Shown one piece after another: positions 35,107 through 39,785 of a stretch of 48,060 bases of DNA. How positions within the stretch are numbered: position 1 is the first letter of the stretch; the number at the start of each line of letters is the position of its first letter. The notes beneath the pieces were generated by a model. It saw nothing but the letters and a program-made list of their open reading frames with translations, did not search any database and was not told the origin of the DNA. The stretch is from positions 1 through 48,060 of IMG/VR virus record IMGVR_UViG_3300005663_000070; one strand, given 5' to 3'. Source of the stretch: a virus. The position numbers were made by a program, and so were the translations under genes.

Positions 35107-35306
35107 AACAAATCCCCTATTCGGATTACTGTCGAGCATTTTCTACACACGAATTGGTGTGCGAGACTCCTATAATTACATACTTGACCTTCGGAAACAA
35201 GGACTCCATCACAATTGCTATTAGAAAAATGGTCATCTAAAGCTTTAGATAAACATATAGTTCCAAGATCTAATCCAAGAGGCTGATTACCCTGTATCTT
35301 TTTCAT
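35103..35306 (-). CDS. small Cys-containing protein downstream of the polymerase
   Basis: 67 residues from ATG 35306, overlapping the polymerase stop (ATGA); the open frame continues upstream but inside the polymerase end. Cys at about 18, 32, 43 and the CRKC pair (54-57) could bind zinc. Ends by ATGA overlap with the next gene. Function unknown. Confidence 0.55.
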   Translation of the reverse strand: MKKIQGNQPLGLDLGTICLSKALDDHFSNSNCDGVLVSEGQVCNYRSLAHQFVCRKCSTVIRIGDLL

Positions 35307-38116
35307 TTCTTGTAAACCTCGCTTAATTCCCCCTCGGCATCGAGTGGCAATCCGACTGCCCATTCCGGGCCAGTGCACATTATTTTCAACATATCATCAA
35401 GAGCACCCACATCATTTTTTTGTAACATACAAACTATTTCATCGTGGCTATGTAATACTATTGGAAGCTTGATAGCATCTATTTCCAAGATCCAATATGC
35501 TAACAGATCTCTTGCACACGCCTGTACAATATTTTCTGTGATACTTCCGCCCCACAAATGTCCATAATGCCATCTAATCTGTGAACCTCTGGTTGTTTGT
35601 TTTAAGGAACAGTGGCGATAGGTGAGTTCTCGTCCTGATGGGAGTTGAAGGTGAACTGTGCCTTTTCGATTGAAAATTTTTAACCGGAACCCTATTGCGT
35701 TGCCACCTTCATCATATTTCCGTGACACCTGAGTTTGTTCATGCGGGTATTTAATCACAAACTTAAATGCCTTTTCAACAGCAGACCAAAATTCAGGTAT
35801 TTGTTTATAGGTAGTACGATATGTTTTAATAAGCTGATCAATAAAATCCCAGTCATATTCACCACTATCGAATAGAGGTCGAAGATCAGAATTGGTTACA
35901 CAATTTTCATAGAATTTATTTGTACCCATTCCATATCCGCAATTAGACACAATCATGTTACCCGCTTGGAATCTATGATAGTCGCCCGAATATAGGATGT
36001 CTGCTGTTTCTAAGATTTTCGATCCTGGTGGTGAATCTAAGATTACCTGGTCTGTATCCAGCATTATTATTGATTCTGTCAATATCAAGCTGCGGATTAT
36101 CCCACCCTGGCAATGTTGCCAAATATTCAAGAAAATCAACTCTATCAGTGATCCATTTGGGCCACACTCTAATACCTCGTTGACCATAATGTCTATGAGG
36201 TCTGGTCTCGCATCTGCTAATAATTGCACAAATTCTATCAAGCAATCGTTCTTTATGTGGTAAAGGCACTGTTGTTTTATAAGCCTGAGTTTTACCGGAT
36301 GCCTTTTTAGCACAGACATTACAACGTGTAGAATTTCCGGCGACCAAGCTATCTCTTTCTGGAGTAGAGATTTTACCACAGGAGCAACGACATTTGACGG
36401 ACTTAATGCCCTTGCGTGGCCCAAACTTAATTTCGATAACTTCAAGTTCTCCATACATGTCTCCGAGAATTGGTTGCCTGTACTTAGGCTGATTGCCGGA
36501 AACCACACGCCCTTGTCTAAGATCTCGTGATCTGGAGTTACCCATATTCCTTTTACATTTACACATGATTTTTTACCTTTATGAACAACCCCTTTATGAT
36601 TTACCCACTGTCTACCGTCCCATAGTTTATCGAGTATATCAAGATCCTCGATTGATTTCCACCCACTATAAGTTAAAACTGGGGTTCCTAATGCCACGCA
36701 ACCAAGTATGGCATCCTTACCAAACCCCCTACGAATTTTGAGTAACTTTTTAACAGGAGGAATTTCATCTTCTTTTGGTTTATATACAGCACTATTAAAT
36801 AGCATAGTAGCAAATACACTATAAATATCTTCCCCATTTGCAAATCCATTTACTAAATCTTCTTGGTTCGCAAACCAAGCTAAAATTCTCGCTTCTATCT
36901 GTGCCGAATCAGCTATTCCTAAAATAACTCCGTCTGGACAACCCAGTAAACTTCTCATAGCAGCTATAAGTGGGTGTGTGCCTTGACCACCACGCCCTCT
37001 ACCGCCGAGATTCTGTAAGTTGATCCCACCACTCCCAGACCACCTTCCAGTATGAGCACCATAATAATTAAGAGGTACACGAAGTAACCCGCCAGAAGCA
37101 GTGGCTTGATTAGCCATATTATTTATTCGTTTAATATGCAGGGGCCAGGATTTAACAGCTTGCCGGGCAACACATAAATTTCGTATCGTTTTATCAGGGT
37201 GAACCAACAATTCTTGAAATCCACGATCATCTTTCGCAAAAGCTGGAATAACTCCAGGCGTACCCAGTAACTTTGTCATGTTCTTACCCGGTTTACCTAC
37301 TTTGACTGGAATTTGTTCATCTTCTGGCAGAGCCTCTTGGAGAAGTTTAACAAAAGACAGATTTCCACTGAGGTCTTTATCTTTGTGCTCAGTTTTATCT
37401 ACTATCTGTTTTACTTCTACTAACATTTTTAATTTGAGATCCGTAGCTTTTTTAAAATCGAATTTAATTTTCGGCCTGAGATAAAGGTCAAGAGTATGAC
37501 GAGCAACTGGTATTTCCACCTGGGGATTTGACATCTCCGGTAATAGTAACTGAAAGAGGGCTGTTTCGATTTCAATATCATTACAGCAATAGTCAGCAAG
37601 ATTATTTTTAAGATTATTATTAGTTTCAGCGTCCATATCTTCATAGTGAAGCCCCTTGAACTGTATCGTTTTACCTTTGTCCTTTAGCCCAAACATTTTA
37701 GTAACATCTTTCATGCGGTGACTCATACGAGCATCGTAATGTCGGAGCAGATCGTCAATATCTATTACGTACGGGGGTATGATACCGAACCTTACGGCTA
37801 AAATAGCCATATCAAATTTACAATTTTTTGCAACCACTGTACACCGTTCCAAGTTAAGACCATAAACATTTTGTACACATGCAATATGGTCATATATAAA
37901 TACAAGATCACCTTGACTTTTAGGACAAAAACGTGGGACAAAATCTGGTGACTCAGCGGTTCCAACCCCAGTGAAGTCGAACCTGGGATCTGTGATATAC
38001 TCTATAATAGACATCTTTTTCCCAAGAGAATAATCCTGATCATAGTAAGATTCAAAATCTATGATCAGAACTTTCTCTGGATACCCAACAGATTTTAATA
38101 TTTCCTGATAGCTCAT
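35303..38116 (-). CDS. polA: family A DNA polymerase with 3'-5' exonuclease, interrupted by an intein
   Basis: 937 residues including a 253-residue intein, so the mature enzyme would be 684. The exonuclease (about 15-195) is DEDDy: Asp20/Glu22 (LIIDFESYY), Asp102 (KFDMAIL) and Tyr176-x3-Asp180. Polymerase motif A has Asp403 (GIADSAQIEARI). Motif B begins RRGFGKDAILG (Lys467) and resumes after the intein with CGYGMG. Motif C has His891-Asp892-Glu893. Joining G472 to C726 restores the eight-residue Lys-to-Tyr spacing of the O helix. It would replicate the phage genome with the TOPRIM-helicase. Without splicing the enzyme should be inactive, because the intein cuts the active-site helix. Starts by ATGA overlap. 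Confidence 0.95.
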   Translation of the reverse strand: MSYQEILKSVGYPEKVLIIDFESYYDQDYSLGKKMSIIEYITDPRFDFTGVGTAESPDFVPRFCPKSQGDLVFIYDHIACVQNVYGLNLERCTVVAKNCKFDMAILAVRFGIIPPYVIDIDDLLRHYDARMSHRMKDVTKMFGLKDKGKTIQFKGLHYEDMDAETNNNLKNNLADYCCNDIEIETALFQLLLPEMSNPQVEIPVARHTLDLYLRPKIKFDFKKATDLKLKMLVEVKQIVDKTEHKDKDLSGNLSFVKLLQEALPEDEQIPVKVGKPGKNMTKLLGTPGVIPAFAKDDRGFQELLVHPDKTIRNLCVARQAVKSWPLHIKRINNMANQATASGGLLRVPLNYYGAHTGRWSGSGGINLQNLGGRGRGGQGTHPLIAAMRSLLGCPDGVILGIADSAQIEARILAWFANQEDLVNGFANGEDIYSVFATMLFNSAVYKPKEDEIPPVKKLLKIRRGFGKDAILGCVALGTPVLTYSGWKSIEDLDILDKLWDGRQWVNHKGVVHKGKKSCVNVKGIWVTPDHEILDKGVWFPAISLSTGNQFSETCMENLKLSKLSLGHARALSPSNVVAPVVKSLLQKEIAWSPEILHVVMSVLKRHPVKLRLIKQQCLYHIKNDCLIEFVQLLADARPDLIDIMVNEVLECGPNGSLIELIFLNIWQHCQGGIIRSLILTESIIMLDTDQVILDSPPGSKILETADILYSGDYHRFQAGNMIVSNCGYGMGTNKFYENCVTNSDLRPLFDSGEYDWDFIDQLIKTYRTTYKQIPEFWSAVEKAFKFVIKYPHEQTQVSRKYDEGGNAIGFRLKIFNRKGTVHLQLPSGRELTYRHCSLKQTTRGSQIRWHYGHLWGGSITENIVQACARDLLAYWILEIDAIKLPIVLHSHDEIVCMLQKNDVGALDDMLKIMCTGPEWAVGLPLDAEGELSEVYKK
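35942..36700 (-). other. intein in DNA polymerase (motif B)
   Basis: Residues 473-725 of the polymerase. Block A is CVALGTPVLTYSGWKSIEDL (473-492), starting with the nucleophilic Cys. Block B is VTPDHEIL (526-533, Thr and His present). Blocks F/G are ETADILYSGDYHRF and AGNMIVSN, ending in Asn725, followed by Cys726 as +1 residue. All residues for canonical splicing are present (penultimate Ser replaces the usual His). The centre (about 545-705) looks unlike an in-frame endonuclease; that region encodes an HNH enzyme in another frame. Confidence 0.92.
35973..36566 (-). CDS. HNH homing endonuclease nested out of frame inside the intein
   Basis: 197 residues, read two bases out of phase with the polymerase/intein frame and lying wholly inside the intein DNA. 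From about residue 29 it is a typical phage HNH enzyme: DMYGELEVIEIKFG, CRCSCGK (C59, C61, C63), CNVC (C82, C85), then RHYGQRGIRVWPKW and the HNH core LDIDRINNNAGY..GNLRF (Asp161, Asp163, Asn175). The ATG at 36566 has AAAGG nine bases upstream, so separate translation is possible. Both frames are open throughout. In ordinary inteins the endonuclease is in frame with the splicing halves; here it is not. Confidence 0.85.
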   Translation of the reverse strand: MCKCKRNMGNSRSRDLRQGRVVSGNQPKYRQPILGDMYGELEVIEIKFGPRKGIKSVKCRCSCGKISTPERDSLVAGNSTRCNVCAKKASGKTQAYKTTVPLPHKERLLDRICAIISRCETRPHRHYGQRGIRVWPKWITDRVDFLEYLATLPGWDNPQLDIDRINNNAGYRPGNLRFTTRIENLRNSRHPIFGRLS

Positions 38117-38825: not shown

Positions 38826-38986
38826 TATATTCTCCTACCGCTACGTGTAATTTTGCCTTGTTCTTTAAGCTTGTTATATTTTTCCCCGTATTCCTCGAAA
38901 GTTATTTTACCGAGAGCCAATTGCCAACGGATTTTATCTTCTTCCGGAGAGATTAAACACGGTCGTCTTGTTGATCCCTTACCCAA
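38825..38986 (-). CDS. 53-aa conserved small phage protein starting on TTG
   Basis: TTG at 38986 with AAGGGG five bases upstream gives MGKGSTRRPCLISPEEDKIR at the N-terminus. This is the signature of a small phage family that usually starts M(S/G)KGS.PRP..(V/I)S.EE…W. No ATG is available in this frame before the motif. The tail is basic (KEQGKITRSGRRI). Function unknown. Confidence 0.6.
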   Translation of the reverse strand: MGKGSTRRPCLISPEEDKIRWQLALGKITFEEYGEKYNKLKEQGKITRSGRRI

Positions 38987-38987
38987 A

Positions 38988-39080
38988 TTAGCCCCTTGGT
39001 TTCATAAGCCCCTTGTGTAGCTTGCGTCTTGCTACTTTACGGGTGTGTCTGTCTCGTTTGGATTTTGATTTAGCAGTCAC
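38988..39080 (-). CDS. 30-aa very basic peptide
   Basis: GTG at 39080 overlaps the stop of the upstream gene (GTGA); TAA at 38990-38988 is just before the next TTG start. Residues are nearly all basic (TAKSKSKRDRHTRKVARRKL). Possibly a nucleic-acid-binding micropeptide; supported only by its junctions and composition. Confidence 0.35.
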   Translation of the reverse strand: MTAKSKSKRDRHTRKVARRKLHKGLMKPRG

Positions 39081-39298
39081 GATCTTGTTTTTTCTATTAT
39101 TGTTTTAACCATATCATCAAGTTTAGCCGCATATTTATGTGATATTGCCATAAAAGATATACCAAAGCACAATATATGTAGATGTATTTCAGTATATTCT
39201 TTTGACACATACTCTCGCTCTAAACTAAATAGAAAAGTCCAACGCCATCGCCAACTAATATTCCCAGTTAAAGAAATTTCATAATTTTTAGTTTTCAT
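39077..39298 (-). CDS. small hypothetical protein, related to the N-terminal half of the 34.1-34.4 kb product
   Basis: 73 residues, Trp/Arg-rich (GNISWRWRWTFLFSLE) with HLHILCFGISFMAI, similar to LKILCFGLTLEIW in the protein at 34090-34434. It thus seems to be a paralogous small beta domain without the zinc ribbon. A membrane association is possible but the hydrophobic stretch is short. Confidence 0.5.
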   Translation of the reverse strand: MKTKNYEISLTGNISWRWRWTFLFSLEREYVSKEYTEIHLHILCFGISFMAISHKYAAKLDDMVKTIIEKTRS

Positions 39299-39301
39299 AA
39301 T

Positions 39302-39409
39302 TTACTCTGGTGTACAAAACCAATTATCACAATTTCTACAATGACAAAGATAAAAGCTAACTTGTGCTACTCCGCTTGAATCACATTCGGGACACACACA
39401 CATAATCAT
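39302..39409 (-). CDS. 35-aa zinc-ribbon micropeptide
   Basis: ATG 39409 (or 39403) to TAA 39304-39302. CVCPEC and CHCRNC / C-terminal Cys provide a compact zinc ribbon. No clear ribosome-binding site, and it overlaps the next upstream micro-ORF by 29 bases in another frame, so one of the two may not be expressed. Confidence 0.35.
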   Translation of the reverse strand: MIMCVCPECDSSGVAQVSFYLCHCRNCDNWFCTPE

Positions 39410-39488
39410 TATCAAGTATTTTTTGAGACTGCTCCAGTTCTCGTTTAAACAATTCAATACGTAATTTAGAATTAAATACACTTATCAT
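39381..39488 (-). CDS. 35-aa helical micropeptide
   Basis: ATG 39488 follows GGAG at about ten bases; two bases after the upstream stop. Sequence SVFNSKLRIELFKRELEQSQ forms one amphipathic helix. Low information; kept because of its site and the tight gene order. Confidence 0.35.
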   Translation of the reverse strand: MISVFNSKLRIELFKRELEQSQKILDNDYVCVSRM

Positions 39489-39489
39489 T

Positions 39490-39627
39490 TTATTTTACTC
39501 CACACTTACGCATCGTATTAAGCAAGTCTTTTACATCAGCAGGGAGATCTTTAGGTGGGTTATTTAAAAGTCCCTTTGCCTGTCTGATTGTTAAACTCCC
39601 AGTGGTATTTTTCCTTTTCCTTTTCAT
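39490..39627 (-). CDS. 45-aa small basic protein
   Basis: ATG 39627 overlaps the upstream stop (ATGA), with AGGA eight bases before it. N-terminus KRKRKNTTGSLTIRQAKGLL, then PPKDLPADVKDLLNTM. A basic tail plus a short helix; nucleic-acid contact is plausible. No family recognised. Confidence 0.45.
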   Translation of the reverse strand: MKRKRKNTTGSLTIRQAKGLLNNPPKDLPADVKDLLNTMRKCGVK

Positions 39628-39785
39628 TTTATTTTCCTAAACCTCTTGGTAGCTTTACACCGCTTACAGGTTACTTTATTTCTAATATCTGTAATTTTTA
39701 ATTGCACAAACCTCTTTCTCTCACAGCCACAAGCAGATATAATCCACCAGGGTAGCCATGAAAAATGTACTATTTCCTTTTTCAT
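39624..39785 (-). CDS. 53-aa zinc-ribbon-like protein
   Basis: ATG 39785 overlaps the stop of the phosphoesterase (ATGA). CGC (residues 19-21) and CKRC (40-43) give a four-Cys ribbon; the rest is basic (ATKRFRKIK). Ends by ATGA overlap with the next gene. Function unknown. Confidence 0.5.
   Translation of the reverse strand: MKKEIVHFSWLPWWIISACGCERKRFVQLKITDIRNKVTCKRCKATKRFRKIK

Follow-up and report, generated by a model that had tools for sequence, protein, structure and literature searches.

Intein and HNH gene in the DNA polymerase locus

The DNA polymerase locus studied here raises the question of whether an intein can carry its homing endonuclease as a separate gene, read in another frame of the same DNA. 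Inteins are usually described as either harboring the endonuclease in the same chain or having lost it. In the analyzed window, i.e., the whole stretch of 48,060 bases of the IMG/VR virus record IMGVR_UViG_3300005663_000070, a family A DNA polymerase gene is interrupted by an intein, and an HNH reading frame overlaps this insertion on the same strand (Table 1). The polymerase precursor comprises 937 aa, leaving 684 aa once the predicted splicing is done. A first-pass annotation had located both splicing halves in the polymerase frame, from Cys473 to Asn725, and these coordinates hold, the motifs and the predicted Hint fold being in agreement with them. The HNH frame, previously described as being read out of phase, begins at position 3 of polymerase codon 517, confirming an offset of +2. 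As proposed, it fills the endonuclease region of the intein, but it extends beyond the linker, with ~30 codons at its start lying over splicing block B and the stop over block F, so that more than the spacer is common to both frames. Located 5' of the polymerase cluster, a region of ~950 bases (window positions 38826–39781) contains no ORF of at least 80 aa, and neither tRNA nor Rfam matches were found there.

Table 1. Coordinates of the polymerase, intein and HNH features in the window; a slash marks the splice junction.
Feature	Position	Strand	Basis
Family A DNA polymerase ORF (host gene)	35303..38116	-	ORF; Pfam DNA_pol_A 1.8e-13; phrog_17 DNA polymerase 2.3e-61
N-extein, polymerase residues 1-472, end ...RRGFGKDAILG	36701..38116	-	Intein-free relatives: GFGKDAILG/CGYGMG
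Intein, 253 residues, Cys1 to Asn253, then Cys; 759 nt	35942..36700	-	Polymerase codons 473-725 (Cys473-Asn725)
N-terminal splicing part, blocks A and B, intein residues 1-75	36476..36700	-	pLDDT; best Foldseek matches are solved inteins (probability 1.00)
Block B motif TPDHEIL (Thr55 and His58 invariant in 48 aligned inteins)	36518..36538	-	HNH codons overlap
Overprinted linker of the intein frame, residues 76-225	36026..36475	-	Predicted unstructured; mostly pLDDT <50
C-terminal splicing part, blocks F and G, intein residues 226-253, end ...IVSN/C	35942..36025	-	pLDDT; Asp234 and Asn253 invariant
Overlapping putative HNH endonuclease gene, ATG start, 197 aa, offset +2 to polymerase frame	35973..36566	-	phrog_374; HNH-frame purifying selection
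Ordered part of HNH protein, residues 31-190 (predicted)	35997..36476	-	pLDDT mostly >90; invariant columns
AAAGG, possible weak Shine-Dalgarno sequence, 9 nt 5' of HNH ATG	36576..36580	-	Sequence; -3.9 kcal/mol
C-extein, polymerase residues 726-937, first residues CGYGMG	35306..35941	-	Polymerase ORF

Predicted structures of the two overlapping products

The insertion is in frame at a conserved polymerase site, and empty alleles of this site exist. Its termini are those of a class 1 type intein, with Cys1 and Asn253 being invariant among 48 aligned inteins and the +1 residue being Cys or, rarely, Ser. Block B (TxxH) and blocks F and G are present as well, Thr55, His58 and Asp234 likewise being invariant in the 48 sequences. 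An AlphaFold2 model computed from these 48 intein sequences reached pLDDT values of 95–98 at residues 1–70 and 94–96 at residues 231–253, while most of residues 76–223 remained below 50; accordingly modeled, the splicing parts (residues 1–75 and 226–253) form a confident Hint domain, and the ~150 residues between them are predicted to be unstructured. The best Foldseek matches of this model in the PDB were solved inteins (probability 1.00, best E 0.0019), and the 36 best fold matches were all inteins or intein-like domains; by sequence, PI-MtuI was the best solved relative. Polymerase codons 473–725 are an intein, for which autocatalytic splicing would be expected from the motifs and the predicted fold.

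The HNH frame matched the PHROG profile phrog_374 (HNH endonuclease, 6.1e-32) and related profiles. Pfam and NCBIfam returned no matches to the window's HNH frame, a PDB sequence search with the HNH profile detected zinc-binding look-alikes and no specific HNH match, and Foldseek found no significant match to the HNH model (best, weakly, PacI with E 0.19). The HNH name is therefore based on the PHROG profiles, and no solved template is claimed. In the HNH alignment, Cys61, Cys63, Cys82 and Cys85 and the D163-R164...N175 region fall within the ordered part of the protein, and Asn175 is invariant. As no His is invariant and no strong template was found, we only infer nuclease activity and refer to the product as a putative HNH homing endonuclease.

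In the model of the HNH protein, confidence is high between residue 31 and ~190, and the preceding residues are disordered. Residue 31 starts at position 36476, the exact end of intein residue 75, and the ordered regions of the two proteins share just ~10 codons, near the C-terminal blocks. In the models, order thus appears to be complementary across the frames (intein residues 1–75 and 226–253 versus HNH residues 31–190).

Prevalence of the layout in related inteins

Relatives with the same layout, for which the first-pass annotation had suggested a search, were readily found. By tblastn, the HNH protein matched EBPR siphovirus 2 gp51 (42.5%) and many Salmonella phages (37%), mostly underneath features annotated as DNA polymerase. 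In the relatives examined among these matches, the HNH frame lies at offset +2 inside a polymerase intein, and none of the public records examined has an annotated CDS for it; in Streptococcus phage Javan101, the HNH is found at offset +1. The layout was seen in isolated phages, namely EBPR siphovirus 2, Salmonella jerseyviruses, a coliphage and a Streptococcus phage, as well as in bacterial genome contigs and many metagenomic viruses. Scans with the HNH alignment recovered at least 80 viral loci and 17 genome contigs. In 101 of 107 classified loci, a single open frame contains both intein blocks (N and C) around the HNH, the polymerase-frame linker thus being open (92 at offset +2, 9 at +1 and none in frame).

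Among the matches listed for an intein-seeded scan, in which some contigs repeat those of the earlier scans, 73 loci possessed complete blocks and an out-of-frame HNH and none an in-frame HNH, two were cut by a contig end, and four were scored without HNH. A second HNH subfamily, termed type B and searched with a type-B alignment, was located inside inteins at offset +1 in 49 of the best 80 loci; 30 of the remaining 31 listed were devoid of any overlapping open frame. In total, 186 distinct related inteins were counted among the matches listed, five of them without and 181 with HNH (type A at +2, 117; type A at +1, 10; type B at +1, 54; in frame, 0), amounting to 117 at offset +2 and 64 at +1. 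The polymerase frame is open through each of the 186. The statement that the HNH is never in frame holds for this sample, i.e., scans of the best 80 loci each, with cases judged by their exteins being in family A polymerases; the profiles used to detect inteins and HNHs derive from the family's own members. Far from being peculiar to this phage, the layout is the usual one in a large intein family.

Several loci deserve separate mention. Many of the type B inteins L189–L250 and L334 are located near the polymerase motif GG..xEN/CxQA, not at the GK...LG motif, representing a second hot spot. Two inteins of the family per locus occur in L058, L020, L036, L057 and L086, the last four combining one type A and one type B HNH intein, each out of frame. 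In L008, the polymerase (ORF start at 1715) features an extra intein C-terminal half (VYDILNCGPRHRFMANGKLVHN) 5' of the HNH-bearing intein. L094 (NZ_JACVEL010000022.1, Taishania pollutisoli assembly) encodes a jerseyvirus-like polymerase whose C-extein is 99% identical to that of a Salmonella phage, and is probably a stray phage contig in this assembly. In L105, a Phycisphaerales MAG, the intein N and C blocks are in different ORFs, with the HNH ORF being intact, representing either a decayed intein or an assembly error.

Stop-free second frame and selection on both frames

To evaluate the open second frame against chance, the HNH protein was kept fixed, synonymous codons were shuffled, and stops were counted in the polymerase frame. 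For the window, 3.4 stops were expected and none is present (P = 0.003), the third frame across the HNH region having 32 stops versus 27 expected. No stops were seen in 81 distinct offset +2 loci (3.1 expected each) or in eight offset +1 loci (7.7 expected each), and the third frame across these loci was not depleted (12.7 observed versus 12.5 expected); 54 type-B inteins likewise contained none (3.8 expected). Four free-standing HNH relatives from Enterococcus, Pseudanabaena, Pseudomonas and Klebsiella phages have 7–10 stops in one comparable frame and 11–20 in the other. The earlier view that two open frames are unlikely by chance is thus borne out across many loci, which together are decisive, but for the single window locus the evidence is suggestive and weaker than had been implied.

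Substitutions between relatives track the codons of the HNH frame within the spacer, but those of the intein frame within the splicing blocks. In the linker core, they accumulate at intein codon position 2 for offset +2 and position 1 for offset +1, both corresponding to the HNH wobble position, and in the N-terminal splicing block at intein codon position 3. When the same substitutions were placed at random in 20 independent pairs of relatives, 533 amino-acid changes were observed in the HNH frame versus 1126.9 expected (ratio 0.47), with purifying selection at P = 0.005 or below in all 20 pairs. In the intein-frame linker, 1240 changes compared to 1126.2 expected (ratio 1.10) indicate that, save for the absence of stops, the linker is overall unconstrained as a protein. 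A comparison of selection in the two frames, as had been recommended, therefore clearly favors the HNH frame, and the description of the polymerase-frame linker as overprinted sequence agrees with both this ratio and its mostly low pLDDT. In the window's own subfamily, the linker is slightly constrained in two pairs (window/L007: 57 versus 67.1, P = 0.013; L004/L007: 59 versus 70.7) and without constraint in the two others tested.

Translation signals for the HNH gene

In the Streptococcus/Gardnerella/Tissierella group, the HNH ATG is located at intein nt 145, in several members, and in the majority of the Streptococcus/Gardnerella ones, behind a AAAGGAGG-type Shine–Dalgarno (SD) sequence, and duplex energies reach −12.9 kcal/mol; just 0.35% of the ATGs in these loci reach −12. 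Starts in the other type A groups are at nt 92 or 98 (−4 to −11.5), and those of type B mostly at nt 187–202 (mean about −7). The window and its close relatives share a start at intein nt 134, for which relatives achieve −5 to −12; the window's own value of −3.9 kcal/mol is weak and does not stand out in the window. Furthermore, HNH-frame stops often occur just 5' of the conserved ATG or GTG starts. Judging from the SD energies across the groups, internal initiation of the HNH gene is likely for the family in general and plausible for the window itself.

Mobility, loss and origin of the HNH-bearing inteins

The contigs L339 and L340 are 99.8% identical on either side of the junction, their sole difference there being a 759-nt insert at GFGKDAILG/C, which shows that a 759-nt unit inserts precisely; the intein of the window has the same length. 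In most close relatives of the window polymerase, the junction is empty and reads GFGKDAILGCGYGMG or a variant of this sequence. As deduced from the codon alignment, the inteins of L020 and L021 are 100% identical, compared to 85% and 72% for the exteins. The presence of almost the same intein in polymerases that have themselves diverged indicates that the inteins have spread horizontally. Contigs of Tissierella and Soehngenia (L107, L108) carry inteins that are 99.9% identical, with exteins at 88–92%.

Deletions of the HNH preserve the frame and leave in-frame mini-inteins. The polymerase genes of a natural plus/minus pair from one metagenome (3300001765; L160 and L161) are 99.5–99.8% identical besides a 531-nt block; where this block is missing, the HNH is lost and the intein stays in frame. 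Compared to its nearest HNH-bearing relatives, L169 has 432 nt fewer, and 297 nt are missing in L148, all three lengths being multiples of three; in L077 and L071, a stop lies inside the HNH while the intein is still open. Mini-inteins of 402–471 nt exist in the family.

In the HNH tree, the offset +2 HNHs form one clade (100/98). Type B intein HNHs are nested in a clade together with free-standing HNHs (100/100), and offset +1 type A HNHs cluster with a small number of free-standing genes found on polymerase-scan contigs (98/92). Together with the different start positions, this topology suggests at least two, probably three, captures of HNH genes by inteins.

Proposed mechanism and alternative explanations

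The explanation best supported by these results, to which we assign a probability of roughly 0.85, is that the homing endonuclease of a class-1-type mini-intein is encoded by a gene that overlaps the intein in another frame and would be translated on its own, with splicing and cleavage likewise being predicted from the features described above. Ribosomes translating the polymerase would pass through the HNH region, which in this frame encodes a linker free of stops and without meaning, and the intein would then be excised by its two splicing parts, as expected from motifs and predicted fold. Initiation by other ribosomes would take place inside the intein, at an ATG or GTG that is often preceded by an SD-like sequence, and yield the HNH protein separately, in keeping with the start position and the selection observed. 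This enzyme would be expected to cut intein-free polymerase genes at the splice junction, upon which the whole 759-nt unit could be copied into the cut gene; a frame-preserving deletion may later remove the HNH and leave an ordinary mini-intein.

With somewhat lower confidence, we also consider it probable that this represents a widespread class of phage inteins with the endonuclease as an alternative-frame gene, into which HNH genes were captured on no fewer than two and probably three occasions, the points of entry differing and both alternative frames being used. As the HNH would have entered repeatedly in both alternative frames and in none of the sampled cases in frame, selection or mechanism may keep the two chains separate. 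Some mini-inteins would then be deletion remnants.

Among the alternatives, an unlikely one that nevertheless fares best is that the HNH protein is expressed but acts elsewhere, or is no nuclease at all, and that the intein spreads by ordinary recombination. This would be consistent with the missing invariant His, but accounts poorly for insertion at conserved polymerase motifs, for the horizontal transfer and for the nesting of two HNH subfamilies in the same intein family. Less probable still is −1 programmed frameshifting, by which the HNH would be made without its own start as a fusion to the N-terminal part of polymerase and intein. Offset +2 is indeed the −1 frame, the codons before the window's HNH start are A-rich, and the relative L007 reads GGA AAA AAA C there; however, inspection of 33 start regions by eye revealed no common slippery heptamer, the offset +1 groups would need the opposite shift, and HNH-frame stops are frequently found just 5' of the conserved ATG or GTG starts.

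We give even less credence to the HNH frame being an untranslated relic or passenger. The strong purifying selection in each of the 20 pairs, the strong SDs in other groups and the recent mobility all argue against it, outweighing the weak SD of the window and the few relatives with broken or deleted HNH ORFs. The first-pass annotation had named compensating indels as the main alternative, i.e., two frameshifts by sequencing or assembly error that split an ordinary in-frame intein–HNH chain. Taken by itself, the window locus provides just P = 0.003 for its open second frame, but the layout is conserved among relatives: the same offset recurs in 117 distinct inteins, found in isolates as well as in assemblies that are independent of each other, which excludes such an error for practical purposes, 64 more inteins use the other alternative frame with none in frame, and the codon-position pattern of substitutions fits two frames. 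Neither of the two outcomes that the first-pass annotation had listed as refuting its reading was therefore obtained, the polymerase-frame linker being open in relatives and a frameshift error being excluded, and its interpretation is supported. Equally negligible is a group I intron with an incidental intein-like reading, since, frequent as HNH ORFs are in group I introns, including those of phage polymerase genes (PMC3428280), the window has no Rfam match at the gathering threshold, on which ground this candidate was rejected, and the splicing motifs conserved in 48 aligned inteins, the Hint fold and the polymerase frame open through all distinct inteins counted speak against it as well.

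Comparison with known systems

In large bifunctional inteins such as PI-SceI and PI-MtuI, the endonuclease resides within the same polypeptide and in the same frame. The inteins studied here resemble them in the Hint domain, in the insertion at a conserved motif and in the endonuclease region between blocks B and F, but differ in that the endonuclease was in frame in 0 of 181 sampled cases. The spliced polymerase-frame product is likewise comparable to a mini-intein without endonuclease, with a filler linker; unlike in such mini-inteins, this linker doubles as an alternative-frame gene that is under selection. Jerseyvirus "intein-containing DNA polymerase precursors" (e.g., of Salmonella phage vB_SpuP_Spp11) belong to the same intein family and have the same layout. 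Several jerseyvirus records annotate the insert as an intein, and those examined lack a CDS for the overlapping HNH. Group I introns with an HNH ORF, e.g., that of I-PfoP3I (PMC3428280), also nest an HNH gene in a splicing element of a polymerase gene. Their HNH is made as a separate protein, as is proposed here, whereas splicing of the window insert is predicted at the protein level, which requires the shared DNA to be readable in the frame of the polymerase as well.

In the open-access literature, no report of an intein with its endonuclease in another frame was found, preprints and most subscription journals lying outside the search. The layout described here would represent a third intein arrangement, common in phage DNA polymerases and absent from the annotation of the records examined. 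It makes several questions testable, namely the translation of an internal gene from within its host gene, the reason for the consistent lack of in-frame nucleases, the possible mobility of some inteins classed as "mini", and the partition of order and disorder between two overlapping proteins on one DNA.

The nearest known case is the out-of-frame HNH insertion in a methylase of mycobacteriophage ShiLan, in which no splicing domain was found, for which leaderless initiation was discussed, and which its authors expect to remain in the protein (PMC11855218); another such methylase is mentioned in PMC12613952. Both the ShiLan insertion and the one described here comprise an alternative-frame HNH ORF, a host frame without stops and a disjunct, homing-like distribution. 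The ShiLan HNH frame showed no convincing similarity to our HNH profiles (best E 0.008, 6.4 bits, among the gene's own ORFs). In ShiLan gp65 (L349, 6786–9668), the methylase frame weakly matches the intein N-block profile (E about 1e-4), and a separate intein in gp65 was reported (PMC11855218). Whereas the ShiLan insertion is devoid of intein or intron splicing domains, the window insert possesses intein splicing domains and a predicted Hint fold, and this type of intein may thus be regarded as the counterpart, splicing-competent as predicted, to the puzzling ShiLan element.
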